DNA of 64,000 nt, taken from NCBI GenBank assembly GCA_947491225.1, contig CANLIE010000001.1, positions 81,747 through 145,746 on the forward strand. Direction: 5' to 3'. Source of the stretch: an uncultured Cellulophaga sp. (GTDB taxonomy: Bacteria; Bacteroidota; Bacteroidia; Flavobacteriales; Flavobacteriaceae). The stretch's first letter is position 1. Each line of letters begins with the position of its first letter. Position numbers and translations under genes: made by a program. Below, piece after piece: positions 46,958 through 64,000 of the stretch. The notes beneath the pieces were generated by a model, which ran no database searches, was not told the origin of the DNA, and saw nothing but the letters and a program-made list of their open reading frames with translations.

Positions 46958-46990
46958 GTACAAATTAAAGACAACTAAAAATCATTGAAA

Positions 46991-48955: not shown

Positions 48956-48981
48956 TCTTAATAGTCTGTTTATTTCAAAAT

Positions 48982-49018
48982 AAAAGCGGGCTGCGTTCTA
49001 GGATCAGCCCGCTTTTTT
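48982..49018 (+). terminator. Hairpin terminator within the nos cluster, after nosZ
   Basis: AAAAGCGGGCTG (48982-48993) and CAGCCCGCTTTT (49005-49016), plus TT, form a strong GC-rich terminator. As the nos genes continue downstream, partial read-through or a second promoter is needed. It may set nosZ in excess over the accessory genes. Confidence 0.85.
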
Positions 49019-49071
49019 AAACTAAAAAAACCATAACCAATAACTAAGTCTAAATTTTAACATTAAAAGCT

Positions 49072-49692
49072 ATGAAAAAAGCAAGTGTACTAATGATTAT
49101 TGGCCCGTTACTTTTCTTGGGGTTATTTGCTTTTCCATTATGGAATATAATGCTTGGAGCTCCCCAGTATCCTGAGCCATTAGGAATGAACATACATATA
49201 GATGGTATTCGTGGCGCATCAGAATTTGACATTCAGAACATAGACGGACTTAATCACTATATAGGTATGCGTAAACTACCAAAAGCAGAAGATATGTGGG
49301 AGTTTAGTACTTTTCCCATAGTAATTGGAGTAATGATTGCGTTGGGTGTACTAATAGGAATACTGGGCTTCTTTAAAAAAGTAAGCTATAAATGGTTTAT
49401 GGGATGGTTTCTGTTAATGTCCATTTTAGGAATCCTTGGTATGTATGATTTTAATGCTTGGATGGTAGATTATGGTACAAACCTTGACCCCAATGCAATT
49501 ATGAAGTTAGCAAACCCAGATGGCACTCCTATGAGCTATAAACCGCCGCTTTTTGGACATACAAAGATGCTGAATTTTGATGTTACATCGCTTCCATCTA
49601 CAGGTGCATGGATGATGTTTATTGGTATGATGTTTACTGTTATTGCCTTCTACCTAGGCTTAAAAAGTAAAAGACAATCCACGACTAAATAG
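49072..49692 (+). CDS. Four-helix membrane protein of the nos cluster (NosB position)
   Basis: A 206-residue protein with four predicted transmembrane helices (about 5-25, 82-104, 108-128 and 180-198). A long periplasmic part lies between the first two, with PEPLGMNIHIDGIRGASEFD and LNHYIGMRKL. Met- and His-bearing segments near the membrane (HYIGMRKLPKAEDMW, FGHTKMLNFD) could contact copper or a partner. An integral membrane protein at this place behind nosZ is a known trait of clade II clusters, where it is called NosB in epsilonproteobacteria. Identity with NosB is likely by position but not proven. Confidence 0.75.
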   Translation: MKKASVLMIIGPLLFLGLFAFPLWNIMLGAPQYPEPLGMNIHIDGIRGASEFDIQNIDGLNHYIGMRKLPKAEDMWEFSTFPIVIGVMIALGVLIGILGFFKKVSYKWFMGWFLLMSILGILGMYDFNAWMVDYGTNLDPNAIMKLANPDGTPMSYKPPLFGHTKMLNFDVTSLPSTGAWMMFIGMMFTVIAFYLGLKSKRQSTTK

Positions 49693-49699
49693 ATATGTT

Positions 49700-50128
49700 A
49701 TGAAAAAGTTTTTGCTTGGAATATCTGTTGTATTAACCCTAATAGGATGTAACATAAGTGCAAAACCCATTAATTATGGTTCTGATGGCTGTCACTATTG
49801 TAGTATGACAATTGTAGACAAACAGCATGCAGCTGAATTTGTCACAAAAAAAGGAAGATCCTATGTTTTTGATGCATCTGAATGTATGCTAAACCATTTA
49901 AAAGAAATAGACAGTACAACTGTTGCCCTTTTTTTTGTAAATGATTACAATACCCCTGGGGAATTGATTGACGCTACACAAGCTACTTATCTTATCAGTA
50001 AAAACATTCCAAGCCCTATGGGAGCGTTTTTATCTGCGTTTGCAACAAAAGAAGAGGCAGAGTATGCATTGTCTAAAAGCCATGGAAAAATTTTTACATG
50101 GAAAGAATTATTAAATCATTTCAATTAA
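49700..50128 (+). CDS. nosL: NosL copper chaperone lipoprotein
   Basis: A 142-residue outer- or inner-membrane-anchored lipoprotein with lipobox LIGC (Cys17). The motif GCHYCSMTI with Cys31, Cys34 and Met36 is the Cu(I)-binding signature of NosL. DKQHAAEFVTKKGRSYVFD and ASECMLNHL are the conserved NosL core. It delivers copper to the NosDFY machine for CuZ assembly. It sits eight bases behind the membrane protein gene and ten bases ahead of nosD. Confidence 0.92.
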   Translation: MKKFLLGISVVLTLIGCNISAKPINYGSDGCHYCSMTIVDKQHAAEFVTKKGRSYVFDASECMLNHLKEIDSTTVALFFVNDYNTPGELIDATQATYLISKNIPSPMGAFLSAFATKEEAEYALSKSHGKIFTWKELLNHFN

Positions 50129-50137
50129 CCATTCTTA

Positions 50138-51376
50138 ATGAAGGTCATTCATAAATTATTTTTTATTACTTTACTGCTCTTTGGATATTTCCTCTCAGCA
50201 AAAACAATTATAATTTGTCCTACTTGCAAGGTAAAATCTATTAAAGAAGGTATTGCCATTGCTGCAGATTATGACACTCTTTTAATAAAAAAAGGAACAT
50301 ACAAAGAATACAACATTCAAATAACCAAACCATTAACTTTATTAGGTGAAAATTATCCGGTAATTGATGGTGAAGACAAAGGCGAAATAATTACCATCCA
50401 GTCTAATGATGTTACCATAGATGGGCTCTTTATCATTAACGTAGGTACAAGTTACACTACTGATTATGCTGCTATACGTGTAGTAAAAAGTGAAAATTTT
50501 TTAATTCAGAATGTAGTACTAGAAAAACTATTTTTTGGTATTTACTTAGAAAAATCAAATAATGGGCGAATCTATCATAACAAAATTATTGGTGATGCTG
50601 TAGATGAATATAATTCTGGCAATGGCATACAACTTTGGTATTCAAAAAACATTGAAGTAGAAAAAAACATAGTACAACATGTAAGAGATGGTATTTACTT
50701 AGAGTTCTCAGATAATATTACTATTAAAAAAAATACAAGTACGGACAACCTACGTTATGGACTACATTTTATGTTCTCTAATGATGATGTTTACACAGAT
50801 AATACTTTTGAAAACAATGGTGCTGGTGTTGCAGTAATGTTCTCTAAACGTATAAAAATGAATGGTAATACTTTTAAAAAAAACTGGGGAACAGCAGCCT
50901 TTGGTTTACTTTTAAAAGAAATTACTGATGCAGAAATTATAAACAACACTTTTGAAGAAAATACCATTGGTATTAACATAGAAGGCTCTAATCGTATAAA
51001 TTACACAAACAATAATTTCATAAGAAACGGATGGGCTGTTAAAGTACTTGGTGCTTGCTATACCAATGTTTTTTCAAAAAATAACTTCTTGTACAATTCT
51101 TTTGACATATCCTATAATAGTAAACTAAACGACAATAGTTTTGATCAAAATTACTGGAGTAATTATACAGGTTATGATTTAGATAAAAATGGTATTGGAG
51201 ATATCCCCTATAGACCTGTAAAACTGTTTTCATATATTGTAAATCGCACTCCAGAAACTATAGTACTCCTGCGTAGCTTATTTATGGATATTATTGATTT
51301 TTCTGAGAAAGTATCTCCCGTTTTTACACCAGACAATCTTATGGATGCCAATCCTTTAATGCATAAAAGAAAATGA
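50138..51376 (+). CDS. nosD: NosD, periplasmic copper-site assembly protein
   Basis: A 412-residue protein with a signal peptide ending FLSAK (near residue 22) and a right-handed parallel beta-helix of NosD/CASH repeats. Typical turns include GIQLWYSKNIEVEKNIVQ, GIYLEFSDNITIKKNTST, GLHFMFSNDDVYTDNTFENN (each about 22-23 residues) and NNNFIRNGWAVKVLGAC. NYWSNYTGYDLDKNGIGDIP near residues 345-364 is the NosD-specific block. It works with NosF and NosY to load sulfide/copper onto NosZ. Its stop overlaps the nosF start (ATGA). Confidence 0.94.
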   Translation: MKVIHKLFFITLLLFGYFLSAKTIIICPTCKVKSIKEGIAIAADYDTLLIKKGTYKEYNIQITKPLTLLGENYPVIDGEDKGEIITIQSNDVTIDGLFIINVGTSYTTDYAAIRVVKSENFLIQNVVLEKLFFGIYLEKSNNGRIYHNKIIGDAVDEYNSGNGIQLWYSKNIEVEKNIVQHVRDGIYLEFSDNITIKKNTSTDNLRYGLHFMFSNDDVYTDNTFENNGAGVAVMFSKRIKMNGNTFKKNWGTAAFGLLLKEITDAEIINNTFEENTIGINIEGSNRINYTNNNFIRNGWAVKVLGACYTNVFSKNNFLYNSFDISYNSKLNDNSFDQNYWSNYTGYDLDKNGIGDIPYRPVKLFSYIVNRTPETIVLLRSLFMDIIDFSEKVSPVFTPDNLMDANPLMHKRK

Positions 51377-52083
51377 TAAAAATAGAATTATTACATAAAA
51401 AATTTGGAAAAAACCAAGTACTGACTGGGTTGGATTTGCACATACAGAAAGGTGGTATTTTTGCAATCTTGGGGCCTAATGGTTCTGGAAAAACAACACT
51501 TATAAAAACAATTTTAGGTATGGTAGTGCCCAATACAGGAAATATTTCCGTTTTGGGAGAACCAATTAAAAACAAATGGAAATATAGACAAGAGATTGAA
51601 TACCTACCACAAATTGCTAATTTCCCTGGAAACCTTAAAGTCAAGGAACTTATACGTATGATAAAAGATCTTCGTCAAAAAAGCAGTGAAGAAGAAAAAT
51701 TAATACAATTATTTGCTTTAGAACCTTATTTAGATAAAAAACTGGCGACACTCTCAGGAGGAACAAAGCAAAAAGTAAATATTGTTTTAACTTTTATGTT
51801 TGATAGCCCATTAATTATACTTGACGAGCCAACTACTGGATTAGACCCTCTTGCATTAATCCGTTTAAAAGAGTTAATACAAGTAGAAAAGGAAAAAGGA
51901 AAAACAATATTAGTTACCTCACATATCATGCAATTTGTTGAAGAAGTTGCAGATGAAATTGTATATCTTTTAGAAGGCAAAATATACTTTAAAGGATCTA
52001 TACAAGAATTAATGACCAAAACAAAGCAAACAGATTTTGAACATGCCATTGCGGCCATAGCAACTCCTACTATTTATGATTAA
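51373..52083 (+). CDS. nosF: NosF, ABC transporter ATP-binding protein
   Basis: A 236-residue ATPase. Walker A is GPNGSGKTT (near residues 34-42), the ABC signature LSGGTKQK (near 128), Walker B LIILDEPTTGLDP and the switch His in LVTSHIMQFVEEVADE. With NosY it drives the NosD-linked transfer for CuZ maturation. It overlaps nosD by four bases and nosY by eight, so expression is tightly coupled. Confidence 0.94.
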   Translation: MIKIELLHKKFGKNQVLTGLDLHIQKGGIFAILGPNGSGKTTLIKTILGMVVPNTGNISVLGEPIKNKWKYRQEIEYLPQIANFPGNLKVKELIRMIKDLRQKSSEEEKLIQLFALEPYLDKKLATLSGGTKQKVNIVLTFMFDSPLIILDEPTTGLDPLALIRLKELIQVEKEKGKTILVTSHIMQFVEEVADEIVYLLEGKIYFKGSIQELMTKTKQTDFEHAIAAIATPTIYD

Positions 52084-52858
52084 AATTCTAAAATATAGTT
52101 TTTATGATTTAATGCGTAGCCGTTGGAGCTACATCTATTTTCTATTTTACCTTATCTTAGGTTTTGTACTATTATTTTTAAACAATGATGTATCTAAGGC
52201 AGTAATTACGTTAATGAACATTATCATCATATTAGTACCATTGATAGGAACAATATTTGGTGTAATGTACTACTACAATTCTAAGGAATTTACAGAGTTA
52301 CTTTTGGCACAGCCAATAAAACGGTCGTCCATTTTTTTAGGTCAATATTTTGGAGTAGCAGGCTCACTAACATTAAGTTTGGTTTTAGGCTTAGGTATAC
52401 CGTTTGTTTTATATGGACTTTTTAAAAGCGATGCCATTTTTGATTTTTCATTATTACTGGTAACAGGAGCTTTCTTAACCTTAATTTTTACTGCATTATC
52501 CTTTAACATTGCCTTGTCCAATGAAAACAAAATAAAAGGTTTTGGGTATGCTGTTCTTCTATGGCTATTTTTAGCCGTGATTTATGATGGCATTTTTCTA
52601 ATGTCTCTTATCATTTTTAAAGAATATCCGCTAGATACATTTTCATTAACAGCAACAATGTTAAACCCCATAGATTTGTCCAGAACATTAATTCTACTTA
52701 AACTAGATATTTCTGCACTTTTGGGATACACAGGAGCTGTTTTTAAACAGTTTTTTGGGACCAATACTGGTTTGGTTATTTCTATGGTAATGCTAGTGCT
52801 ATGGACTGCCATTCCTGTTTGGAGATTGTCTTACAAAGCCAACCGAAAAGATTTCTAA
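52076..52858 (+). CDS. nosY: NosY, ABC transporter permease
   Basis: A 260-residue ABC-2-type permease with six hydrophobic segments (about 18-36, 42-66, 88-118, 128-148, 160-186 and 236-254). EFTELLLAQPIKRSSIFLGQ is the coupling region typical of NosY/ABC-2 permeases. It pairs with NosF and carries NosD-linked assembly across the inner membrane. It is the last gene of the nos operon and is followed by a terminator. Confidence 0.92.
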   Translation: MIKILKYSFYDLMRSRWSYIYFLFYLILGFVLLFLNNDVSKAVITLMNIIIILVPLIGTIFGVMYYYNSKEFTELLLAQPIKRSSIFLGQYFGVAGSLTLSLVLGLGIPFVLYGLFKSDAIFDFSLLLVTGAFLTLIFTALSFNIALSNENKIKGFGYAVLLWLFLAVIYDGIFLMSLIIFKEYPLDTFSLTATMLNPIDLSRTLILLKLDISALLGYTGAVFKQFFGTNTGLVISMVMLVLWTAIPVWRLSYKANRKDF

Positions 52859-52893: not shown

Positions 52894-52926
52894 AAACCTC
52901 AACTATTTCTAGTTGAGGTTTGTTTT
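52894..52926 (+). terminator. Terminator of the nos operon
   Basis: AAACCTCAACTA and TAGTTGAGGTTT with loop TTTC are followed by GTTTTG. It lies 35 bases behind the nosY stop. Confidence 0.85.
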
Positions 52927-53112
52927 GCTCCCCTTCATAATGTACTATCGAACGAATTGTTTTTGATTATCAAAGAGTTAGCCTAAAAACTATTCTTTAG
53001 TTATATAACTATCTATATTTAACACTTTTGCAGAAATAAAATGATTCATTATTCATAATCTATATGATTTAAACCTATAGTGCTAATTCAAAAAAATATT
53101 CTTTATTTTGAT

Positions 53113-54156
53113 ATGATGAATTTAAAATTACAAAAAAGACACTTTTTGTTTGGGGTACTACTTTCTCTAACAATATTATTTTATTTATGGTCTAAGCTTT
53201 TTTATCTATTTTTATTTTTAATAATTGTTATAGACTCTTTTACTACTAATCTTTCAGTAAAGTTTATCAAAAAAAGACTTTCAATCAAGGTATTTAATAT
53301 TATAAAATATAGTTATCTAATTATAGTGTCAATTTTTATGGCAATATTTATAAGAACTTTTTTATTTGATATTTACTTCGTGCCATCTAGTTCTATGGAA
53401 AAAACATTATCGCCAAATGATTATGTTTTAATAAATAAAATTTCATATGGTGTAAAAGTTCCAAAAAGAATCCAAGAAGTTCCTGTTATTGGTAATTTTT
53501 TCAGAAGAAATGGCAGATTAAATGAGTACGATTTATTTATGCCACTAGGTCCTTTCAAGGATTATAAAAGAGAGGATATTGTTGTCTTTAAATCTATTGA
53601 AGATAATAATGAGTTTTTGGTTAAACGTATAATAGGACTACCTAATGATATACTTACAATTAAAGATTCAAAAGTATTTATTAATGGAGAATATTTAAAA
53701 GAGAAAGACGATTATAGTTATGATTATGTGAATTTTTCTAAAGAGAATAATATAAAGGAAGTAAAAACTTATTCGAATGAAGAGTATCTAAAGTTAGGAA
53801 ATGAAATTAAAAACTCTTTAAAGAGAAATATTAAAAGTGAAGGTAATAGAGAAGTGCTAATATTTCCTACTTATATATCACAAAAAAAACAATGGTCTAG
53901 AGATAATTATGGCAAGATTATTGTTCCTAAAAAAGGAATGAAAATAAAACTTAATAGATATAACTTTGAATTATATAAAGAAATTATATACAGACACGAA
54001 AAAGAAATTATAAGCATTTCTGAGGATAAAACATATACCTTTAAAAATGATTATTTTTTTGTTATGGGAGATAATAGACATAATTCTTGGGATTCTCGCA
54101 ATTTTGGTTTTATTCCGGAGAATTATATTATGGGAAAATGTTTTGTGTTTTTTTAA
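53113..54156 (+). CDS. Accessory signal peptidase I (S26 family)
   Basis: A 347-residue membrane protease. Three hydrophobic segments occur in the first 95 residues. The catalytic Ser94 is in FVPSSSMEKTL, the general base Lys171 in NEFLVKRIIGLPND, and VMGDNRHNSWDSRNFGFIP is the conserved box E. An insert between box D and box E (roughly residues 185-300) carries many charged residues. Catalytic residues are complete. It is much shorter than the housekeeping LepB usual in this group (about 500 residues), which suggests a specialised copy. The ATG at 53113 is preferred over a GTG at 53080. It precedes a secreted-peptide gene, which is its likely substrate (inference). Confidence 0.85.
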   Translation: MMNLKLQKRHFLFGVLLSLTILFYLWSKLFYLFLFLIIVIDSFTTNLSVKFIKKRLSIKVFNIIKYSYLIIVSIFMAIFIRTFLFDIYFVPSSSMEKTLSPNDYVLINKISYGVKVPKRIQEVPVIGNFFRRNGRLNEYDLFMPLGPFKDYKREDIVVFKSIEDNNEFLVKRIIGLPNDILTIKDSKVFINGEYLKEKDDYSYDYVNFSKENNIKEVKTYSNEEYLKLGNEIKNSLKRNIKSEGNREVLIFPTYISQKKQWSRDNYGKIIVPKKGMKIKLNRYNFELYKEIIYRHEKEIISISEDKTYTFKNDYFFVMGDNRHNSWDSRNFGFIPENYIMGKCFVFF

Positions 54157-54417
54157 TAAAACACAATTATTTTATTTTTCTTAAGTTATCTTAGTCATAT
54201 TAATTTTAATTTAAAAAAGCCTATGAAATAAAAAATAAATACAACTTTACAGAAAAGATAATTTATGGATTTGCAAAAAAATAAATAATCTATCGTTATG
54301 ACTATTTTGAGAGACAAATGGTCATTATGTCTTAAAATGCGGCATATCTGTTTAGGCATTTAAAAATAAAAAAGAGTTTATACTCAATAAAACTAATAAT
54401 AAATTAAATATAATAAA
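54157..54417. other. 261-base gap before the peptide gene; probable promoter region
   Basis: The stretch is AT-rich. TTTG at 54269-54272 followed by a TATCGTTA block near 54292 is a weak promoter match. No gene is visible. The presence of a terminator directly behind the following small gene suggests that the peptide has its own transcript starting here. Confidence 0.35.
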
Positions 54418-54663
54418 ATGAAAAAAGCATTTGGAATCATAGCAATAGTAGCTATGTCAATGGCAATTAATATAAATATAGCAGAAGCTAATGATCATTA
54501 TATCTATACATCTTCTTTAAGTGAGGAACCAGGTGGTTGGTTAAGTTTTGGAGACCCAGAAGTAGCAACAGCTACAATGCCTATAGGGATAACATCACAA
54601 GGAGATCAAGTATATGAAGTACATACTTATTGGGACTGTAAAGGATGGTCAGGATCTTGTTAA
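54418..54663 (+). CDS. Small secreted peptide precursor with C-terminal two-cysteine motif
   Basis: An 81-residue product. The first 24 residues form a clear signal peptide (KK at the start, hydrophobic core, AEA at the end), giving a mature peptide of about 57 residues starting NDHYIYTSS. The mature part is acidic and rich in Gly, Ser and Thr. It ends YWDCKGWSGSC, with Cys74 and the C-terminal Cys81 as its only cysteines, flanked by two Trp. They could form a six-residue ring by disulfide. It resembles the small secreted precursor class of Bacteroidota (such as NVEALA-type peptides) in size and neighbours, but the signature itself is not present. Function unknown. Confidence 0.6.
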   Translation: MKKAFGIIAIVAMSMAININIAEANDHYIYTSSLSEEPGGWLSFGDPEVATATMPIGITSQGDQVYEVHTYWDCKGWSGSC

Positions 54664-54682
54664 AATAGAATTTAATATTTTG

Positions 54683-54717
54683 AACCTAGGCATAATTTAT
54701 TATACCTAGGTTTTTTT
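54683..54717 (+). terminator. Terminator directly behind the peptide gene
   Basis: AACCTAGG and CCTAGGTT arms, with inner ATAAT/ATTAT pairing, are followed by seven T in a row. It separates the short peptide transcript from the downstream export genes, as expected for a product made in excess. Confidence 0.88.
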
Positions 54718-54735
54718 AAATGAATAGATTAATAA

Positions 54736-56004
54736 ATGAATAAAATAAAACTACTATTACTAACAATTGTAATGGCTTTCTCATATATGGGATGTGAAAA
54801 CAAATCAAAAGAATATAAAGGTTTAGAGTTTCAAGATTTAAAAATTGAAAATTATAAAGAATTAAAAAGATCTAATCAAAATATAAAGAAATTTAATATT
54901 TCTGTTGAGGAATCTTTTGAAAATAGAGTAAGATCTTCGGTATTAGTAGATACGTGTTACTTCACTCAACTAGAAACCAAATCTGATAACCTAATTGGGC
55001 ATGTAGATGAAATTTTAATCCATGATGATAAAATTTTGGTGATGGATATTTATAAATCTAAATCCATATTTATGTTTAACCTCAAAGGAAAGTATTTGAG
55101 AAAAATAGGAGATGTCGGAGGGGCTCCAGGCGAGTATCCGAGGCCAGAAGCGTTTGATATTGATAAAAGGAATAATGAAATTCTTGTTTTTAATGGAACT
55201 ATTCGAAAAATTTTAAGATATAATTTCAATGGTGAATTTCTAGGAAATATTAATTTAGATTTAGGTTGTAAAAGCTTTAAAGTGTTAGAAGATGGCAATA
55301 TAATGTTATTTAGCGCTGACTATGCCAATACTCATTTGGGTGAAATTCCGAATAGATTGATTTATATTATTGATAAATCAGGAACTTTAATAGGTTATGG
55401 ACCTAAAAGAACTTCAGATTATGAGAAGGTAAGATATAATCTTTCAAATAATTTAATTTCTAAAAATAACGAAATTACATATAGTTATAGGTTTTCAGAT
55501 ACGATTTATAGCATAAATGAGACATTCATTGATGCTAAATATGAAATTAATTTTGGAGATAAAGGCATTGATAGAGAAAAGCTTGGCAACAAAGATTTTA
55601 AAGAGTTTTATAGAATTTTAATGAATGATAAATCACCAATAGCATTTTTCCCAGGTAAACACTTTCAAACCAATAATTATTTATATTTTTCATTTATATA
55701 TAAAGGAAGATCTATTTCTTGTTTTTTCAACAAGCTAAATTCTGAGTTAATTACTGGGGGAAATACAAATAGCCTTAACAGTACATATCCGTTTTTTTCA
55801 GATTTTTCTACGTCAAACAATGACTACTTTATTAGTGCTGTAGATGCGTATGATTTAATTCAATTTGAAGATGCAATGAAAAAACTTGATCCAGATTTGT
55901 ACCACAAACCAATTTATGGAAAAATACGTACCTCAGAAATTAACGAAAAAGATAATCCTATTTTGTTTTTTTATAGACTTAAAGAGGTTTTAAATGAAGA
56001 TTAA
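54736..56004 (+). CDS. 6-bladed beta-propeller lipoprotein (BF2992/PF17170-like)
   Basis: A 422-residue predicted lipoprotein with lipobox YMGC (Cys20). Blade-like repeats run through the protein, for example ILIHDDKILVMDIYKSKSIF, MFNLKGKYLRKIGDVGGAPG, YPRPEAFDIDKRNNEILVF, RYNFNGEFLGNINLD and SFKVLEDGNIMLFSADY. The GxxPGEYxxPxxFxxD signature is typical of this Bacteroidota family. Members often sit next to genes for small secreted peptides and thioredoxin-like proteins; their job is unknown, and peptide binding is a fair guess. The stop overlaps the next gene start by 11 bases, so the two are coupled. Confidence 0.75.
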   Translation: MNKIKLLLLTIVMAFSYMGCENKSKEYKGLEFQDLKIENYKELKRSNQNIKKFNISVEESFENRVRSSVLVDTCYFTQLETKSDNLIGHVDEILIHDDKILVMDIYKSKSIFMFNLKGKYLRKIGDVGGAPGEYPRPEAFDIDKRNNEILVFNGTIRKILRYNFNGEFLGNINLDLGCKSFKVLEDGNIMLFSADYANTHLGEIPNRLIYIIDKSGTLIGYGPKRTSDYEKVRYNLSNNLISKNNEITYSYRFSDTIYSINETFIDAKYEINFGDKGIDREKLGNKDFKEFYRILMNDKSPIAFFPGKHFQTNNYLYFSFIYKGRSISCFFNKLNSELITGGNTNSLNSTYPFFSDFSTSNNDYFISAVDAYDLIQFEDAMKKLDPDLYHKPIYGKIRTSEINEKDNPILFFYRLKEVLNED

Positions 56005-56593
56005 ACCCTTTATATTTTTTTTAATTTCGTTAATAATATTGGTTTTATTATTTCTTTTCTTTGCAAGGGAAGGAATTACTAAAAAACAACAATTGCTCGA
56101 TTATTATGGAATTACAGAAAATCATCTAAAAACAATTGAAAAAGAAGAAGATCTTGAATATAACATTGCATTAAGTAAAAGAATTGAAAATATTACTGTT
56201 TTAGATTCTGAGAATAACACATATTTGCTAAAGGAGTTGTTAAACGAATCTCCTAAAATGATTGTTAAATTTTCAAGTTTGGAATGTTCCTATTGTATAG
56301 AGCATATAATAAAATATACAAAAAAATATGAAGAAAAAATAGGTGTAGATAATATTTTATTTTTAGGTTACTTTACTGGAAAAAAAGATTTTTTAATTTT
56401 TAATAGACTTTACCAATTGGATTATAATGTATTTAGTATTCCAAATAATGGCCTAGATTTACCATTAGACTATTTAAATGAGCCCTACATTGTAATCGTA
56501 GATTCTACATTAATACCTAAAGAAACCTTTGTCCCGATGAAATCTAAACCAGAAAGAACAGAAAAATATTTTAGAGAGAGAATTAGATTTTAA
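55994..56593 (+). CDS. Membrane-anchored thioredoxin-like protein with CSYC motif
   Basis: A 199-residue protein with one N-terminal transmembrane helix (about 6-24) and a periplasmic thioredoxin-like domain. The active-site-like motif is Cys98-Ser-Tyr-Cys101 in KFSSLECSYCIEHIIKY, and the strand before it reads PKMIVKFSS. A cis-Pro-type segment is LNEPYIVIVDS. The CSYC dipeptide is not the usual CGPC or CPYC, so redox strength is unclear. Given its place beside a secreted peptide with two cysteines, disulfide formation or repair is the suggested task (inference). It overlaps the propeller gene. Confidence 0.7.
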   Translation: MKIKPFIFFLISLIILVLLFLFFAREGITKKQQLLDYYGITENHLKTIEKEEDLEYNIALSKRIENITVLDSENNTYLLKELLNESPKMIVKFSSLECSYCIEHIIKYTKKYEEKIGVDNILFLGYFTGKKDFLIFNRLYQLDYNVFSIPNNGLDLPLDYLNEPYIVIVDSTLIPKETFVPMKSKPERTEKYFRERIRF

Positions 56594-56740
56594 TCTAATT
56601 TAAGAAATAGGTTATAAAAATGAAATATTAAAAATTCCTCTTTATAATCAAGAATGAGTGTTAGTTATTACTTATACTCTTAATTTGTAATTCAAGGTTT
56701 TATTAAGTGTTATTTTTAATAAAATCAACTTATATATATT
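56594..56740. other. Gap before the RND genes
   Basis: These 147 AT-rich bases hold no visible gene and probably contain the promoter of the export operon. No strong TAnnTTTG box was found. Confidence 0.35.
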
Positions 56741-57844
56741 ATGTATTCAAAAATTAATTATGTAATGACTCTTTGTTTGATTGTAGGTGCTTTTTGTTTT
56801 TTTAGTTGTTCCAAATCAAAACCAAAAGAAATTAAAGATGTTGTTTTAGAAAAAAAGGAATCCTTAGTAGAAAAAAATGAAGTAGAGATTATTGTTTTAA
56901 AAAAAGAATCTTTTCAAAAAGAAATAGTGAGTAATGGAAACCTTATAGCGAAACAAAAAAATATTTTAAAGTTTGAGATAAGTGAAAGATTAGAAAAATT
57001 GTTTGTTAAAAATGGTGATTTTGTAAAGAAAAATCAAGTAATAGCTACTTTAAACCCCTTTAAATATAAGCAAAGAGTTGATGAGGCAAAACTACAATTA
57101 AAAAAAGCTAAGTTAGAATTTGAAGATATGCTGATTGGTCGTGAAATTTTCACTACTAATAAAGATAGTATCCCTAAAGACATTTACGATATGGTTGCTA
57201 GTCGATCTGGTTATGATATTGCTCTACTACAGTTAAAAACAGCTGAGTTTGAACTAAGATCCACTAAATTGTTAGCTCCTTTTAGCGGTAAAATTGCTAA
57301 TGTTAGAAAAAAGCAATATGAAAATATAGGAGCAGGAGATGATTTCATGACTTTAATTAATGATAAGGAATTTGAGGTTGAATTTCGATTAATTGAATCA
57401 GAAATTAATGATGTAGCTGTTAATGATAATATTCAAATATTACCTTTTGCAATAGATAATGAAATATTTAAAGGTAAAATATCATCTATTAACCCACTAG
57501 TTGATGAAAATGGGACAGTTTTAATTAAAGCACAAGTTAAAAATGATGGGCGATTATCAGAAGGAATGAATGTAAAAGTGAAAATTCAAAAAGAAATTGA
57601 AAATCAATTTGTTGTTCCTAAATCGGCTGTAGTTTTAAGACAGAATCAAGAAGTATTATTTAAAGTGAAAAATAGACGGGCATTTTGGACTTATGTAAAA
57701 ACTACAATGGAAAATAGCACATCATATTCATTAATTGCCAATCCTAATAAAAGTACTGCTTTTTTAAAAATAGGGGATACAATTATTGTGTCAGGAAATT
57801 TAAACTTAGCACATGACAGTAAAATTTTTATAAAGGATAACTAA
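56741..57844 (+). CDS. RND efflux periplasmic adaptor lipoprotein (HlyD/AcrA family)
   Basis: A 367-residue membrane fusion protein with lipobox FFSC (Cys23). The lipoyl/barrel-sandwich halves are visible at VSNGNLIAKQKNILKFEI, SERLEKLFVKNGDFVKKNQV (here in two pieces) and TKLLAPFSGKIANVRKK. The alpha-helical hairpin between them is short (about residues 110-165), and the beta-barrel and membrane-proximal domains follow. It links the permease to the TolC-like protein. Start of a compact operon with the RND permease 15 bases downstream. Confidence 0.88.
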   Translation: MYSKINYVMTLCLIVGAFCFFSCSKSKPKEIKDVVLEKKESLVEKNEVEIIVLKKESFQKEIVSNGNLIAKQKNILKFEISERLEKLFVKNGDFVKKNQVIATLNPFKYKQRVDEAKLQLKKAKLEFEDMLIGREIFTTNKDSIPKDIYDMVASRSGYDIALLQLKTAEFELRSTKLLAPFSGKIANVRKKQYENIGAGDDFMTLINDKEFEVEFRLIESEINDVAVNDNIQILPFAIDNEIFKGKISSINPLVDENGTVLIKAQVKNDGRLSEGMNVKVKIQKEIENQFVVPKSAVVLRQNQEVLFKVKNRRAFWTYVKTTMENSTSYSLIANPNKSTAFLKIGDTIIVSGNLNLAHDSKIFIKDN

Positions 57845-57859
57845 ATCATTACTAATTTA

Positions 57860-60800
57860 ATGGTAAAATTTTTATTGCATAGACCTATTGCTACAATAAT
57901 GTCTACCTTAGGGTTGTTTATTTTAGGCATAGTGGCATTTAACTATATTCCTGTGTCTTTAATGCCAGATATAGATATCCCCGAAATTACTGTTCAAGTT
58001 ACTGCTGAAGATATGTCTGCAAGACAGATTGAAGATGCTATAGTAAAAAAAATACGAGGTAACTTGAAGCAAGTGTCACATATAGATGATATTAAAAGCG
58101 AGTCTAGTAATGGATTAGGGGTTATAAGATTAACCTTTAAACAAGGGACTAATATTGATTATTCTTTCATTGAAGTTAATGAAAAGATAGATAGAGCTAT
58201 GGGAAACCTTCCCAAATCTGTTGAACGCCCAAAGATTATAAAGGCTAGTGTAACAGATGTTCCTGTGTTTTATTTAAATATGAATTTAAAGGAGCAAAGT
58301 ACTAATACTTTAAATGGAACAAAAGAGAAAAAAGAATCTTCTATATCTCAGGAATTTACAGATTTTAGTCGCTTTGTAAATCAAGTTATTCGTAAGCGCA
58401 TAGAGCAAGTAGATGAAGTTGCAATGGTAGATGTTAGTGGATTAACATCTTCTGAAATTTTAATTATTCCTAATCATAAAAAATTAAATATATTAGGAAT
58501 TAATATCAATGATTTAGAATCTGCTATTAAAAAATATGAATTAGAAGTTAGTAATCTTTTAATTAAAGATGGTCAGTATCAATACAATATTCGTTTAGGC
58601 TCTACATTGAATGATATTAATGAAATTAAGAATATTTTTATTAATAATAATAATAAACTATTTCAATTAAAGGAAATTGCAGAAGTGTTAGAGCGACCTA
58701 AAGAACGAATAGGCTTGGTTCTATCAGACGGAAAAGAAGCGGTTACTATGGCTATTATTAAGCAAAGTGATGCCCGCATAGAAGATTTAAAAACGGCTTT
58801 AAATAAACTAATAAATAGATTAAGCAAAGAGTATGATACTATAAGTTTTTCAATTACTAGAGATCAAACAAAACTTTTAGATTACGCTATTAGTAATATT
58901 AAACAAAGTTTATTATGGGGCATGCTTTTAGCATTTGGAGTTATGTTTTTATTTTTAAAAAACGTTAAAGCCCCTCTGTTAATAGGAATATCAATCCCTG
59001 TTTCTATTACTATTAGTTTGTTATTTTTTTATTTATTAAATATTTCCATTAATATCATTTCTCTTTCTGGGTTAGTCCTTGGAATAGGTCTTATGATAGA
59101 TAATTCTATAATTGTTATTGATAATATTACACAGTTTAGAGACCAAAAGTATAGTCTTAACGAATCGTGTATTCTAGGTACAAACGAAGTAGTAAAACCT
59201 CTATTATCATCGGCACTTACTACTTGTGCAGTCTTTTTGCCATTAATTTTTTTAAGCGGTATAGCTGGTTCATTATTTTTTGATCAAGCAATGGCCATTA
59301 CTATAAGTCTATTTGTGTCTTTATTAGTCGCTGTAAGTTTATTACCAGTTATGTATAAACTATTTCATTTAAAAGATGTAAAAGACAAAGGAAGAGTTAA
59401 TAGTTTTCTTAAAAAAACAAATAGGTTAAATTACGCCTCAATATATAAAAAGGGGTTCCGTTTTGTAATGCGGAAACAAGGTTTGTCATGGATTATAAGC
59501 TTATTCTTATTATTTGGAGCTGTTGGTTTATTTACTATTTTACCAAAAGAGCAAATACCAAATTTAACCCAAACAGAAGTTTTACTAAATATAGATTGGA
59601 ACGAACAAATAAACGTTGAAGAAAATAAACGTCGAGTATTAGAATTACTAGCCCCCGTTAAACAGAACTTAGTAAATCATACAGCCTTTATAGGAAGCCA
59701 ACAATTTTTATTAGATAAAGAAGGAAAATCAAGAGCATCAGAAAGTATAATATACTTAAAAGGAAAATCTCCTGAGACAATAAATAAAATAAAAAAAATA
59801 CTATACACTTTTATTGGAGAAAAATACTCTAATGTATCAATAGAATATAAAGAAGTTGACAACATTTTTAATTTAATTTTTTCAAATAAAGAAGCTCCTT
59901 TAAATGCTCGTATTCGAAATGTAAATGATATAGGTGGTGCTCAAAGCGAACAACTAAAAAAAGTCTGGTATCAGATACAACAAGATTTAAATGGTTATAA
60001 AATGAAACCTATTCAATGGCAAGAGCATATTTCGATATTAGTTAATCAAGAAAAATTAATAGCATACGGAATAAATTCAAATGAAATTTATAATGCCTTA
60101 AAAACCGCTTTTAGTGCGCAAGAAGTTACTACTATAATAAATAACCAAAATTTTGTTCCTGTTATTATTGGTAATAATTCTAAAAATATTCGTAAAATTT
60201 TAAATGAGACTACAGTACAATCAAATGATAGTACATCTTTTTATATTAAAGAATTTATAAAAGAAACGCGTTCAGAAAATCTAAAAACAATTACAGGTGG
60301 TATTGAAGGGGAATACTACCCTATAGAATTGGATATTTCTAGCGAGAATATTGATAATACTATTAATACCATAAATGAAACTGTTAACACTAATAAATGG
60401 TATAATGTGTCTTTTACTGGAGCAGTATTTTCTAACCAAAAACTGGTTCAAGAATTAAAAATAATATTACTAATTTCATTAATACTACTTTATTTTATAT
60501 TAGCCTCTCAATTTGAATCTTTTGTATTGCCTTTAATTATTCTATTAGAGGTTCCTATTGACTTAGCAGGAGCATTTCTATTTTTAAAATTGTTTGGAAT
60601 GAGTATTAATTTAATGTCTATGATTGGTATTGTCGTAATGAGTGGAATTATTATTAATGATTCAATATTAAAAATAGATAGTATTATACAACTAGAGAAA
60701 CAAGGGTATTCGTTAATGAAAGCTATATTAGTCGCAGGACAGAAAAGACTTAAACCTATAATAATGACAAGCTTGACAACTATACTCGCATTAATCCCTT

Positions 60801-60958
60801 TACTTTTTTCTAGTGGTATAGGAGTTGAATTACAAGTACCATTAGCTATAGCTTTAATTGGTGGAATGCTATTAGGAACATTGGTAAGTCTTTATTTTAT
60901 ACCACTTTGCTATTACTATTTTGCTAGGAAGTTTGATAAAGGAATTATTAGGAATTAA
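57860..60958 (+). CDS. RND transporter permease (AcrB/MdtB-like)
   Basis: A 1032-residue inner-membrane exporter with the two-fold repeat of a first helix, a large periplasmic loop and a helix bundle. The N-terminus FLLHRPIATIMSTLGLFILG is the standard RND start. The helix 4 proton-relay region reads GIGLMIDNSIIVIDNI, with one Asp kept and the second replaced by Asn, as in many Bacteroidota members. GIVVMSGIIINDSILKID is the equivalent in the second half. It drives export by proton motive force. The substrate is unknown; the peptide of this cluster is a candidate. Confidence 0.9.
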   Translation: MVKFLLHRPIATIMSTLGLFILGIVAFNYIPVSLMPDIDIPEITVQVTAEDMSARQIEDAIVKKIRGNLKQVSHIDDIKSESSNGLGVIRLTFKQGTNIDYSFIEVNEKIDRAMGNLPKSVERPKIIKASVTDVPVFYLNMNLKEQSTNTLNGTKEKKESSISQEFTDFSRFVNQVIRKRIEQVDEVAMVDVSGLTSSEILIIPNHKKLNILGININDLESAIKKYELEVSNLLIKDGQYQYNIRLGSTLNDINEIKNIFINNNNKLFQLKEIAEVLERPKERIGLVLSDGKEAVTMAIIKQSDARIEDLKTALNKLINRLSKEYDTISFSITRDQTKLLDYAISNIKQSLLWGMLLAFGVMFLFLKNVKAPLLIGISIPVSITISLLFFYLLNISINIISLSGLVLGIGLMIDNSIIVIDNITQFRDQKYSLNESCILGTNEVVKPLLSSALTTCAVFLPLIFLSGIAGSLFFDQAMAITISLFVSLLVAVSLLPVMYKLFHLKDVKDKGRVNSFLKKTNRLNYASIYKKGFRFVMRKQGLSWIISLFLLFGAVGLFTILPKEQIPNLTQTEVLLNIDWNEQINVEENKRRVLELLAPVKQNLVNHTAFIGSQQFLLDKEGKSRASESIIYLKGKSPETINKIKKILYTFIGEKYSNVSIEYKEVDNIFNLIFSNKEAPLNARIRNVNDIGGAQSEQLKKVWYQIQQDLNGYKMKPIQWQEHISILVNQEKLIAYGINSNEIYNALKTAFSAQEVTTIINNQNFVPVIIGNNSKNIRKILNETTVQSNDSTSFYIKEFIKETRSENLKTITGGIEGEYYPIELDISSENIDNTINTINETVNTNKWYNVSFTGAVFSNQKLVQELKIILLISLILLYFILASQFESFVLPLIILLEVPIDLAGAFLFLKLFGMSINLMSMIGIVVMSGIIINDSILKIDSIIQLEKQGYSLMKAILVAGQKRLKPIIMTSLTTILALIPLLFSSGIGVELQVPLAIALIGGMLLGTLVSLYFIPLCYYYFARKFDKGIIRN

Positions 60959-60968
60959 AAAAGAGAAT

Positions 60969-62525
60969 ATGCTGAAAAATAATTTTTATAAATATATTAT
61001 TCCTTATCTAAAAAACGAACGTAATGCTCTAAATAGAGTATTTTGTTTTTGTGTTTTGTTTTTTTTCTATAATTATAGTTTTTCCCAATTAGATAATAAC
61101 ATTCTTCTTAACCTCTCAAAAGTAACACTCAATGATATTTTAAATGAAGCAAATAAAAAATCCTTAGATGCTTATAAAGCAAAAAGGAAATATGGAGTAA
61201 ATTATTGGGAATTTAAATCATTTAAATCAAGTTTGTTGCCAAAAATTAATTTTGAAACTAAACCTTTAACTTATAACAAGTCGGTGGTAAAAAGATATGA
61301 TTCGGAACAAAACATTGATGTTTATAGATCTCAACAGAACTTGAATAGCTTTGCCAATATTTCTATTAATCAAAATATTAGGGCAACAGGAACAAGTTTG
61401 TTTATAAACTCAAACCTTAATCGATTAGCCAATTTTGGAGATTTAAATATCGAGAATTATAATGCAACACCATTTAGTATTGGGCTAAATCAACCATTAA
61501 TGGCATTTAATTCTTTTAAATGGGAAAAAAAGATTGCTCCTATTAAGTACAGTCAAGCTCAAAAAAACTATATATATGAACTACAAGCTATTAATTTAAG
61601 ATCGGTACAATTATTTTTTGACTGGGCTTTAGCAAGTAAGAAGCTTGAAATAGCTAAGGAAAATGAGGTTTCAGCAAAAAAACTATTCAGGATAGGTCAA
61701 AAACGATACGAAATTGGGTCTATTGAAAAGGATGATGTTCTTAATTTAGAGTTAGACGTTTATAATTCAAAAACTAGTGTAACTCAAAATGAGCAAGCCT
61801 TAGAAAAAGCAGAATCAGAACTGAGGTTGTTTTTAAGATATGATAACGCTCTTGATAAAATCCCTGTATTACCTGAATTGATATCCGATTTACAAATTGA
61901 TGTTAATGAGGCTATAGATTTAACAGAAGCAAATAATCCCAATAATTTAAACTTGCAATTAAAAAAAATTGAAGCAGAAAGAGATTTAGATAAAGCCGTT
62001 AAAGAAAATCGTTTCGATTTATCTTTAACAGCTAGTTACGGCTTAAACCAACAAGCAAATACATTTAATAATGTTTATAGTAATTTTCTGGAACAAGAAA
62101 TGATAGCTATACAATTTAGTATCCCTATCCTAGATTGGGGAGAACGAAAAGGTAAAATTAAGACTGCTAAGATGAATAAAGAAGTCATTGATGTTGAACT
62201 ACAGCAAGATAAGGAATCATTTAAGCAAGATATTACTTTAAAAGTTATTGATTTTAATCTTCAAAAGGAATTAGTAAATGGTGCATTACGAACTAGTGAA
62301 ATTTCAAAAGAATCTTATGAGTTAACTAAGAAACGTTTTTTATCTGGGCGTATTGATTTATTAAGGCTAGCAAGTGCAAGAAAAGCTTGGCAATCTGCTT
62401 CTGAAAATTATATAAAAAGTCTACAAAACTATTGGACACTTTATTATCAAGTACAACAATTAACTCTTTATGATTTTTTGAATAAAAAAGAATTAACAGA
62501 AGATTTTAAAGTCATTTTGGATTAA
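60969..62525 (+). CDS. TolC-family outer-membrane factor
   Basis: A 518-residue protein from the ATG at 60969; a TTG further upstream would overlap the permease. The hydrophobic segment FCFCVLFFFYNYSFSQ near residues 26-41 ends the signal peptide. The OEP repeats contain LDAYKAKRKYGVNYWEFKS, ALASKKLEIAKENEVSAKKLF, RYEIGSIEKDDVLNLELDVY and TKKRFLSGRIDLLRLASARK, the long coiled helices of the TolC tunnel. LLPKINFET and LSLTASYGLNQQ provide barrel strands. It forms the exit duct of the RND complex. Confidence 0.85.
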   Translation: MLKNNFYKYIIPYLKNERNALNRVFCFCVLFFFYNYSFSQLDNNILLNLSKVTLNDILNEANKKSLDAYKAKRKYGVNYWEFKSFKSSLLPKINFETKPLTYNKSVVKRYDSEQNIDVYRSQQNLNSFANISINQNIRATGTSLFINSNLNRLANFGDLNIENYNATPFSIGLNQPLMAFNSFKWEKKIAPIKYSQAQKNYIYELQAINLRSVQLFFDWALASKKLEIAKENEVSAKKLFRIGQKRYEIGSIEKDDVLNLELDVYNSKTSVTQNEQALEKAESELRLFLRYDNALDKIPVLPELISDLQIDVNEAIDLTEANNPNNLNLQLKKIEAERDLDKAVKENRFDLSLTASYGLNQQANTFNNVYSNFLEQEMIAIQFSIPILDWGERKGKIKTAKMNKEVIDVELQQDKESFKQDITLKVIDFNLQKELVNGALRTSEISKESYELTKKRFLSGRIDLLRLASARKAWQSASENYIKSLQNYWTLYYQVQQLTLYDFLNKKELTEDFKVILD

Positions 62526-62561
62526 GCAATTTGATTCTTGAACATGACATGAAATTAATAT

Positions 62562-64000
62562 ATGAAGTATAAAGCATCTTCTTTTTCTATAATAATATTT
62601 TTTGTTTGCTTATCTATAATAGGTATAGCTTTAACATCTTTATTAAGTGTTCAATTAGTTTCTTCAACAAATCAGAAATCGTTATATGTTAATTTTAATT
62701 GGAAAGGAGCTTCAGCTAAAATATTAGAACAAGAGGTTACTTCAAAGTTAGAAGGACTAATTAATAAAGTAAAAGGAATTAAAGAAATTAGTTCTTTTTC
62801 TAATAAAGGCAAAGGTTCTATAAATGTAAAGCTAAAAAAGAATAGTGACATAGATGCTATTCGATTTGAAATATCAAACTTAATAAATCAAAGTTATAGA
62901 GACTTCCCTAATGGAGTTACTTATCCTGAATTATCTTTTAGAGGAGAGAGTGATAATCAAGCTATTTTGTCATATAGTATAAATGCTGATGAAAGTCCGT
63001 ATTATATAAAAAAATATACAGAAAAAAATATACTTCCACGTTTAACAGGTCTTAATGGAGTAAGTAGTATAAATGTTTATGGGGCTACGCCTTTCGAATG
63101 GAATATTAAATATGATGTAAACAAACTATTTCAGTTAAATATTTCTGTTAATGAAATAGAAAATGCTATAAAAAAATATTTTGTAGAGGAACAACTAGGT
63201 AATGGAACTTTAGTTTCAAATATTGATAATACTAGTTTAAATATTTCATTAACTATAAAGTATAAATCAGATTATAATATTGATTGGGGAAATATTCCTA
63301 TAAAAGACTCTAGTGGAAGAGTTATTTTTCTTAAAAATATTGCTAAAGTCGAGTTTAATGAAGCTTCAATATCATCTTATTATCGGATTAATGGTGAAAA
63401 TTCTATTAATATGGTTGTGTATGCCGAGAAAGGTTCAAATACAATTAATGTAGCTAGAGAAGTAAAAGCAAAAGTTAACCAGTTAGAAGATGAAATACAG
63501 CAGAATTATACATTAAGGTTAGCACAAGATACAACTGAGTATTTAATTGAGGAGTTAAATAAGATTCAAAGAAGAATGTTGTTCTCATTATTAGTTTTAC
63601 TTATATTGGTTCTATTAATAAATAGAAGCTTTAAATATTTAGCAGTCCTTTTCATTGCTATAATAGTGAATTTGTTAATAGCTATTATTTTTTATTATCT
63701 TTTTAAAATAGAGTTGCAATTATATTCCTTTGCAGGAATTACTATTTCCTTTGGGGTAATAATAGACAATAGTATTATAATGATTGATCATTATAACAAA
63801 AGAAAAAACAGAAAAGTTTTTCTAGCAATTTTAGCAGCAACCTTAACTACAATAGGGGCTCTTTTAATTATTTTTCTATTAAGTACAGAACAAAAAGAGA
63901 ATCTGTTGGATTTTGCATTAGTTATAATGATTAATATAGGAGTTTCTCTTTTTGTCTCTTTATATTTTATACCAGCTTTATTAAAAAAAATAATACTAAA
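62562..64000 (+). CDS. Second RND transporter permease, partial (3' end outside window)
   Basis: The reading starts at the ATG at 62562 and runs off the window end, with about 479 residues visible. It shows the RND topology: a first helix (SFSIIIFFVCLSIIGIALTS), a periplasmic porter region with EITSKLEG-like segments (KVKGIKEISSF, INVYGATPFEWN) and the helix 2-6 bundle (RMLFSLLVLLILVLLINRSF, AGITISFGVIIDNSIIMIDH). The helix 4 motif IIDNS again has a single Asp. Sequence identity to the first permease is clearly low. Two different permeases in one operon suggest an MdtB/MdtC-like heteromeric complex. Confidence 0.85.
   Translation, partial: MKYKASSFSIIIFFVCLSIIGIALTSLLSVQLVSSTNQKSLYVNFNWKGASAKILEQEVTSKLEGLINKVKGIKEISSFSNKGKGSINVKLKKNSDIDAIRFEISNLINQSYRDFPNGVTYPELSFRGESDNQAILSYSINADESPYYIKKYTEKNILPRLTGLNGVSSINVYGATPFEWNIKYDVNKLFQLNISVNEIENAIKKYFVEEQLGNGTLVSNIDNTSLNISLTIKYKSDYNIDWGNIPIKDSSGRVIFLKNIAKVEFNEASISSYYRINGENSINMVVYAEKGSNTINVAREVKAKVNQLEDEIQQNYTLRLAQDTTEYLIEELNKIQRRMLFSLLVLLILVLLINRSFKYLAVLFIAIIVNLLIAIIFYYLFKIELQLYSFAGITISFGVIIDNSIIMIDHYNKRKNRKVFLAILAATLTTIGALLIIFLLSTEQKENLLDFALVIMINIGVSLFVSLYFIPALLKKIIL

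Follow-up and report, generated by a model that had tools for sequence, protein, structure and literature searches.

We have analyzed a stretch of 64,000 nucleotides from an uncultured Cellulophaga sp. (GenBank assembly GCA_947491225.1, contig CANLIE010000001.1, positions 81,747 to 145,746 of the forward strand), referred to here in its entirety as the window, whose right-hand end carries eight genes encoding a type I signal peptidase, a small cysteine-containing peptide, a propeller lipoprotein, a thioredoxin-like membrane protein (redoxin) and the components of an RND efflux pump. A prediction made previously from the sequence alone had proposed that this set, running in one direction from the peptidase to a second RND permease, makes, processes and exports a peptide, or else senses it and defends against it. 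All of these genes lie on the + strand close to where they had been placed, in the order signal peptidase, peptide, terminator, propeller, redoxin, MFP, RND1, TolC and RND2, and the features of the cluster are as follows.

52894..52921, + strand, terminator-like hairpin from the consensus terminator scan, behind nos-type genes; left border of the cluster
53113..54156, + strand, accessory type I signal peptidase, 347 residues, PSSSM and VKR motifs (PF10502, 135.4 bits; TIGR02227)
54418..54663, + strand, peptide precursor, 81 residues (leader-model match)
54682..54717, + strand, hairpin plus T run resembling an intrinsic terminator, separating the peptide gene from the propeller gene (folding z -3.11)
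54736..56004, + strand, 6-bladed beta-propeller lipoprotein, DUF5128 (Pfam; structure model; 4raa fold match)
55994..56593, + strand, membrane-anchored thioredoxin/ResA-like protein, 199 residues, CSYC codons at 56285-56296 (fold search)
56741..57844, + strand, RND periplasmic adaptor, MFP (TIGR01730, 152.7 bits against a cut-off of 94.9)
57860..60958, + strand, RND permease 1, RND1 (ACR_tran, 1032 residues; anchor of the comparison)
60969..62525, + strand, TolC-like outer membrane factor (OEP, 123.2 bits against a cut-off of 22)
62562..64000, + strand, RND permease 2, RND2, cut by the window end

RND2 is complete on the contig beyond the window (1041 residues, with its end near window position 65687), the signal peptidase would have 358 instead of 347 residues if it started at the GTG at 53080, and the queries with the TolC-like protein started one codon upstream, at 60966.

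The signal peptidase scores 136.8 bits with TIGR02227 (cut-off 47) and carries PSSSM and VKR, which we take to be the catalytic Ser and Lys motifs. Described earlier as catalytically complete but short, it is short only beside the second of the two type I signal peptidases in the genome, a 566-residue open frame on contig C3. The peptide precursor has a 24-residue leader ending in AEA and a mature part of about 57 residues with two cysteines and the C-terminus WDCKGWSGSC, as had been read from the sequence, and it is followed by the strong terminator that had been proposed, a hairpin at 54682-54713 with a T run (z = -3.11; 1 of 200 shuffles folds equally well). The consensus terminator scan did not list this hairpin, probably because its loops were limited to 8 bases and no mismatch was allowed. 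The propeller assignment is likewise borne out by a match to DUF5128 (PF17170; 141.3 bits, cut-off 22.9), the only one in the genome at E 0.001, and by an AlphaFold2 model (pLDDT 86.4) whose nearest structure is 4raa (B. fragilis BF0058; E 2.5e-20, TM scores 0.69/0.81), followed by NHL propellers and the DUF4221 structure 3s9j. The redoxin gene overlaps that of the propeller by 11 bases. Its product remains below the Pfam Redoxin cut-off (16.2 versus 26.6 bits) and its profile gave weak thioredoxin matches among the sequences of solved structures (best 0.015), and it was the fold search that settled the assignment, the model (pLDDT 88.6) matching a ResA-type thiol-disulfide oxidoreductase in Foldseek at E 1.4e-7 and prob 1.00, with the CxxC invariant in 27 of 27 aligned sequences. 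The RND permeases match ACR_tran (573 bits for RND1, cut-off 28) and fall far below the NCBIfam cut-offs for MdtB and MdtC (272 versus 1584 and 310 versus 1774 bits). The genome gives twelve ACR_tran matches, which we interpret as six proteins encoded on five contigs, the two cluster permeases among them. RND1 also has a stretch, NDSILKID, that is invariant in four of four orthologues and presumably lies where AcrB carries the lysine of transmembrane helix 10, and its proton relay may differ from that of AcrB.

The arrangement was compared across genomes with RND1 alone, aligned with three relatives, as the anchor, since the redoxin (E 1e-5) matched only 4 of 397 family genomes, that of the window included, and is too divergent to be used in this way. 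A scan of named genomes gave 157 related loci, of which the best 80 were kept, all of these with Bacteroidota names in their titles, and RND1 was found in 17 of the 397 genomes of a family sample at E up to 1e-200 and in 13 of the 395 genomes of a phylum sample at E 1e-180. In total 104 loci were compared, annotated with profiles made from the window and related proteins, and those with an RND1 score of at least 1300 bits are termed close (n = 28, comprising the window, 23 of these 80 loci and four loci of the family sample). For controls, 20 RND loci were picked by hand from the genome of the window and eight related genomes, excluding the permeases of the system. The close loci contain RND2 (23/28), TolC (18/28), peptidase (21/28), propeller (23/28) and redoxin (19/28) genes as well as a peptide-like open reading frame (ORF) with an A-x-A site (21/28), the peptide lying directly before the propeller in 19 and the propeller being followed by the redoxin in 18, and these counts are lower bounds because many contigs break off within the locus and some genes were lost in the layout filter. 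Further members not noticed in the original prediction, which had also missed that the set is phylum-wide, are an O-antigen-ligase-like Wzy_C-TPR protein (16/28), a transglutaminase-like protein (11/28), a small helix-turn-helix (HTH) protein (12/28), DUF1573 (8/28) and MG2 (5/28). The HTH type is exemplified by a 66-residue DeoR/HTH_11-like protein behind TolC (L018:7201-7401) and is a candidate regulator, one not found in the window.

At least one of the peptidase, propeller, redoxin, Wzy and transglutaminase-like genes is present in 25 of the 28 close loci versus 0 of the 20 control loci, which have no RND2, a single TolC match and a single peptide-like ORF containing an A-x-A. The gene set is real and conserved across loci, and the 28-locus versus 20-control comparison rejects chance neighborhood, which the original prediction would have accepted had the RND operon occurred mostly alone. 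An ordinary multidrug efflux operon with unrelated neighbors, to which the match of the permeases to the general ACR_tran family and three close loci with pump genes only could point, is already contradicted by this linkage and by the position of the only DUF5128 gene of the genome within the cluster, and is barely credible. At least one partner gene is also found in 41 of the 52 loci at 1000-1300 bits. The two other genomes from the genus of the window gave no RND1 at 1e-200 and no redoxin at 1e-5, and so the distribution of the system is scattered, in the manner of accessory genes.

Among loci with RND1 at or above 1000 bits, distances between the other pump proteins track those of RND1 closely (RND2, r 0.95, n 54; MFP, r 0.92, n 66; TolC, r 0.94, n 33), as do those of Wzy (r 0.96, n 22) and, to a lesser degree, the peptidase (r 0.69, n 33), with none of 999 permutations as high for any of the five. 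The values are much lower for the propellers (r 0.28, n 40; 0 of 999 permutations as high), the redoxins (r 0.31, n 15; 26 of 999) and the transglutaminase-like proteins (r 0.10, n 18; 193 of 999). Such correlations indicate co-divergence, as distinct from joint function, and the pattern is as expected for a fixed machinery of pump, Wzy and peptidase with an exchanged cargo of propellers and redoxins.

A total of 55 peptide ORFs in 35 loci directly precede a propeller or another peptide, with five peptide genes in a row at one locus (L023). They were selected by a filter that demands a hydrophobic run, an A-x-A and two cysteines, which misses peptides lacking these and lets in a few chance ORFs; one entry (L056) resembles a double-glycine peptide and another locus (L059) has one peptide twice. 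In 29 flavobacterial peptides the identity of the leaders is 0.37 (shuffled, 0.20) and that of the mature parts, which have 2 to 6 cysteines, is 0.26 (shuffled, 0.24). The mature peptides are thus hypervariable behind a conserved leader, and a conserved gene set with a variable peptide is what had been predicted. The A-x-A site, defined as the last one in the first ~60 residues that is followed by a small or polar residue of a defined set, lies 15-25 residues past the hydrophobic segment in 28 of the 29 flavobacterial peptides, with an overall median of 21. Ordinary signal peptides have few residues between the hydrophobic segment and the cleavage site, and this unusual spacing gives a dedicated peptidase a job, making the long leader arm a plausible reason for its presence. 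A leader model built without the window peptide detects the latter at E 3.5e-4 (best domain 5.8e-4), compared with a best domain of 0.088 among 613 negative entries (each ORF entered with up to three alternative starts), one of which reaches 0.0015 by summed score; the leader-selection rule cut a few leaders of the model too early. Two flavobacterial loci with no recognized propeller (L107 and L108) encode three peptides with the pattern (I/V)CKCN(F/I)(W/Y)G(N/K)CKV, two of them with short leaders, and these are perhaps a separate peptide type.

The position of the terminator is also a recurring property, as a hairpin with a T run is found behind the peptide gene in 24 of the 42 gaps of at least 30 bases between peptide and propeller, versus 66 of 451 gaps of 30-400 bases between other genes of the same direction, a set that includes the control loci and some duplicate loci (Fisher 2.8e-9), and in 13 of 840 shuffled sequences. 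Its use is likely to be the production of the peptide in excess over the downstream proteins. The recurring unit in the related loci consists of the peptide, the propeller lipoprotein and the CxxC redoxin, in which the propellers start with a lipoprotein-type N-terminus carrying a nearly invariant cysteine and, in the examples scanned, belong to three Pfam families, DUF5128 (PF17170), TolB_like (PF15869) and DUF4221 (PF13970). The type of the propeller matches that of its own redoxin in 46 of 49 neighboring pairs, and none of 10,000 label shuffles was as high, with up to 13 of the 49 pairs having supplied profile seeds from matched neighborhoods, so that the value is partly circular. This pairing by type had gone unnoticed in the original prediction, as had the unusually short leader of the window peptide. 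In Maribellus and Draconibacterium (L045 and L048) an MFP-RND1 pair lies amid DUF5128-type propellers, which stand in rows of eight and nine.

We propose that the window cluster represents, in reduced form, a modular system of the Bacteroidota for the maturation and export of small cysteine-containing peptides that evolve rapidly, an assignment of function from gene content that we hold with moderate confidence. It is reduced in that it has one peptide with a short leader, and Wzy, transglutaminase-like and HTH genes were not found within the window. Maturation and export of the peptide is, on balance, the probable reading and the one that would account for all of the parts. In such a scheme the terminator would cause the peptide gene to be transcribed more than the genes downstream, the N-terminal hydrophobic segment would take the precursor into the inner membrane, and the cluster's own type I signal peptidase would cut it after the A-x-A. 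The membrane-anchored ResA-like CxxC protein may then form or correct the disulfide of the peptide, with the propeller lipoprotein as its putative matched partner, and the finished peptide would leave across the envelope through MFP, RND1/RND2 and TolC, probably an MdtABC-like two-permease pump. In other members of the system the O-antigen-ligase-like Wzy_C-TPR and transglutaminase-like proteins may decorate or cross-link the product. Linkage and peptide variability thus favor the general proposal made for this cluster, with the function itself a matter of interpretation.

Several observations weigh against this proposal. The window peptide has no match in Pfam or NCBIfam at E values up to 1, and it is the sole exception among the 29 flavobacterial peptides in having 4 residues between the hydrophobic segment and the A-x-A. 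Short leaders (2 to 4 residues before the A-x-A) occur in 5 of 46 distinct leaders; that of the window appears atypical for the system and ordinary as a signal peptide, so the housekeeping peptidase could cut it too. No redoxin was recognized directly behind 124 of 173 propellers, and the peptide filter found no peptides in the propeller rows of Maribellus and Draconibacterium. The three close loci with pump genes only (L032, L034 and L035) are so in the filtered layout, the unfiltered annotation table showing a peptidase in L035. The linkage fades with distance, with at least one partner gene in 16 of the 24 loci below 1000 bits and none in L141, L143 and L144 of the phylum sample. The divergence correlations still include shared species history, and no RND genes were found within the 20 kb read around a related peptide locus on a Phocaeicola vulgatus plasmid, where the pump may be encoded elsewhere or be dispensable.

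The strongest alternative is sensing or self-protection, in which the peptide would be a signal or toxin, the propeller a receptor or immunity protein, and the RND pair a means of clearing the peptide from the envelope. RND pumps do expel antimicrobial peptides, a peptide directly before a propeller with a lipoprotein-type N-terminus and nearly invariant cysteine is the common arrangement, and a small HTH protein is encoded in 12 close loci, all of which speaks for this alternative. Production accounts better, however, for the dedicated peptidase, the redoxin and the presence of multiple peptide genes at single loci, as in L023, and among the window proteins scanned with Pfam and NCBIfam there is no sensor kinase or anti-sigma factor, which makes this explanation unlikely. 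It is also possible that the RND pair exports a different product, such as a glycan or glycopeptide made by the Wzy_C-TPR and transglutaminase-like proteins, with the peptide as a carrier or structural part. The frequency of both genes in the close loci, the co-divergence of Wzy with RND1 and the presence of propellers in five of six further Wzy-anchored regions are in its favor, but neither gene is near the window cluster and the Phocaeicola Wzy query has no match in the genome of the window at 1e-30, such that the pump works without Wzy there, the window copy has decayed, or the query is too distant. We consider an export route of this kind improbable. The regions in question were obtained by using the plasmid-encoded Wzy protein of Phocaeicola as an additional anchor. 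It was found at nine places in 7 of 390 genomes; three of these places belong to L137 and L138, and the remaining six include five with propellers, one with a peptidase and three with a weaker RND1-type permease.

A nos-type gene group at 46985-52858, to which we have given the names NosZ-like, NosL-like, NosD-like, ABC ATPase and NosY-like permease from sequence features, stops just upstream, and the NosY-like protein has no match in the two other genomes of the genus, which therefore provided no empty site for comparison. Two tyrosine-recombinase-like genes (L012:6942-9265) begin 2.5 kb behind RND2, followed by a type III-like restriction-modification pair (L012:9457-14957), both from reading of the ORFs only, and they are a possible sign of mobile DNA beside the cluster. 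An origin from a phage or a defense system was rejected on the basis of PHROGs, where the peptide has no match and the redoxin one weak match (E 0.078), and of PADLOC, which gave no match for seven scanned proteins, two of them from related loci.

Related genes extend into the Bacteroidales. The P. vulgatus plasmid (NZ_CP096966.1) has, in a single run, genes annotated as NVEALA peptide, propeller, redoxin, lepB, O-antigen ligase and transglutaminase-domain protein, and the peptide of this locus (L002) matches PF14055 at E 1.4e-11 (44.3 bits, cut-off 27), while loci of Xylanibacter, Paraprevotella and Prevotella contain subsets of the peptidase, Wzy, propeller, TolC, MFP, RND1 and RND2 genes. 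The NVEALA motif of the Phocaeicola peptides sits where a comparable leader ends and may be the same A-x-A cut site. In the Bacteroidales the leader model detects one NVEALA-annotated Phocaeicola peptide at E 0.0035 and two other peptides at 0.03 and 0.1, and the PF14055-matching peptide is not among the matches listed, up to E 4.1. The tie by sequence is weak, with gene order as its main basis, and for this reason we suggest more tentatively, as a possibility open to real doubt, that these loci form an undescribed, phylum-wide class of peptide secretion, with hypervariable disulfide peptides, an A-x-A (the NVEALA motif) some 21 residues from the membrane anchor, a dedicated signal peptidase, type-matched propeller/thioredoxin pairs and two-permease RND export, probably serving bacterial competition or signaling. 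If this is true, the gut and marine bacteria of a large phylum possess a route of their own for making and exporting variable peptides, which has been overlooked because annotation assigns the pump to drug efflux and treats other parts as domains of unknown function. A role would also follow for the NVEALA peptides and for three propeller families (DUF5128, DUF4221 and TolB_like), the extra signal peptidases would be explained, and there would be a pool of peptides for antibacterial or signaling tests.

The original prediction knew of no described system with this exact set, and we found none in the open-licence literature, which excludes most subscription journals and preprints. In the same literature the terms NVEALA and DUF4221/PF15869 gave no paper, the Pfam accession and DUF name matches concern, by title, Plasmodium or profile methods, and none of the listed matches to '6-bladed beta-propeller' is, by title, on such a peptide system. 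A table of iron-responsive genes of Bacteroides thetaiotaomicron includes BT0662 (O-antigen ligase), BT0664 (6-bladed propeller), BT0667 (signal peptidase I) and BT0669 (RND adaptor), hence matching parts in one run of locus tags, likened here by product names alone, and the passages of that paper in which they appear list each gene separately instead of describing a system (PMC10434189). It was the only paper found there for the BT locus tags searched.

The NVEALA (PF14055) peptides beside propellers in the Bacteroidales resemble the window cluster in having a propeller, a redoxin and a signal peptidase, and differ in that the window peptide has neither a PF14055 match nor a long leader arm and in that the 20 kb read around the Phocaeicola plasmid locus showed no RND genes. 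The pump itself has one adaptor and two unlike permeases, an arrangement that we liken to MdtABC/MuxABC, with RND2 diverging here in step with RND1, but the window permeases are far under the MdtB and MdtC cut-offs and the neighboring genes are unlike. Bacteriocin clusters, which use a double-glycine leader and an ABC peptidase-exporter, likewise combine small cysteine-containing peptides, hypervariable behind a conserved leader, with genes dedicated to processing and export. In the window system, in contrast, the double-glycine site has its counterpart in an A-x-A and a type I signal peptidase, the pump is of the RND type, and no ABC peptidase-exporter was found among the eight cluster proteins scanned with Pfam and NCBIfam. 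To our knowledge no kind of peptide export joins these parts, each of which comes from a known superfamily, and the novelty of the system, in its proposed function, would lie in their combination.

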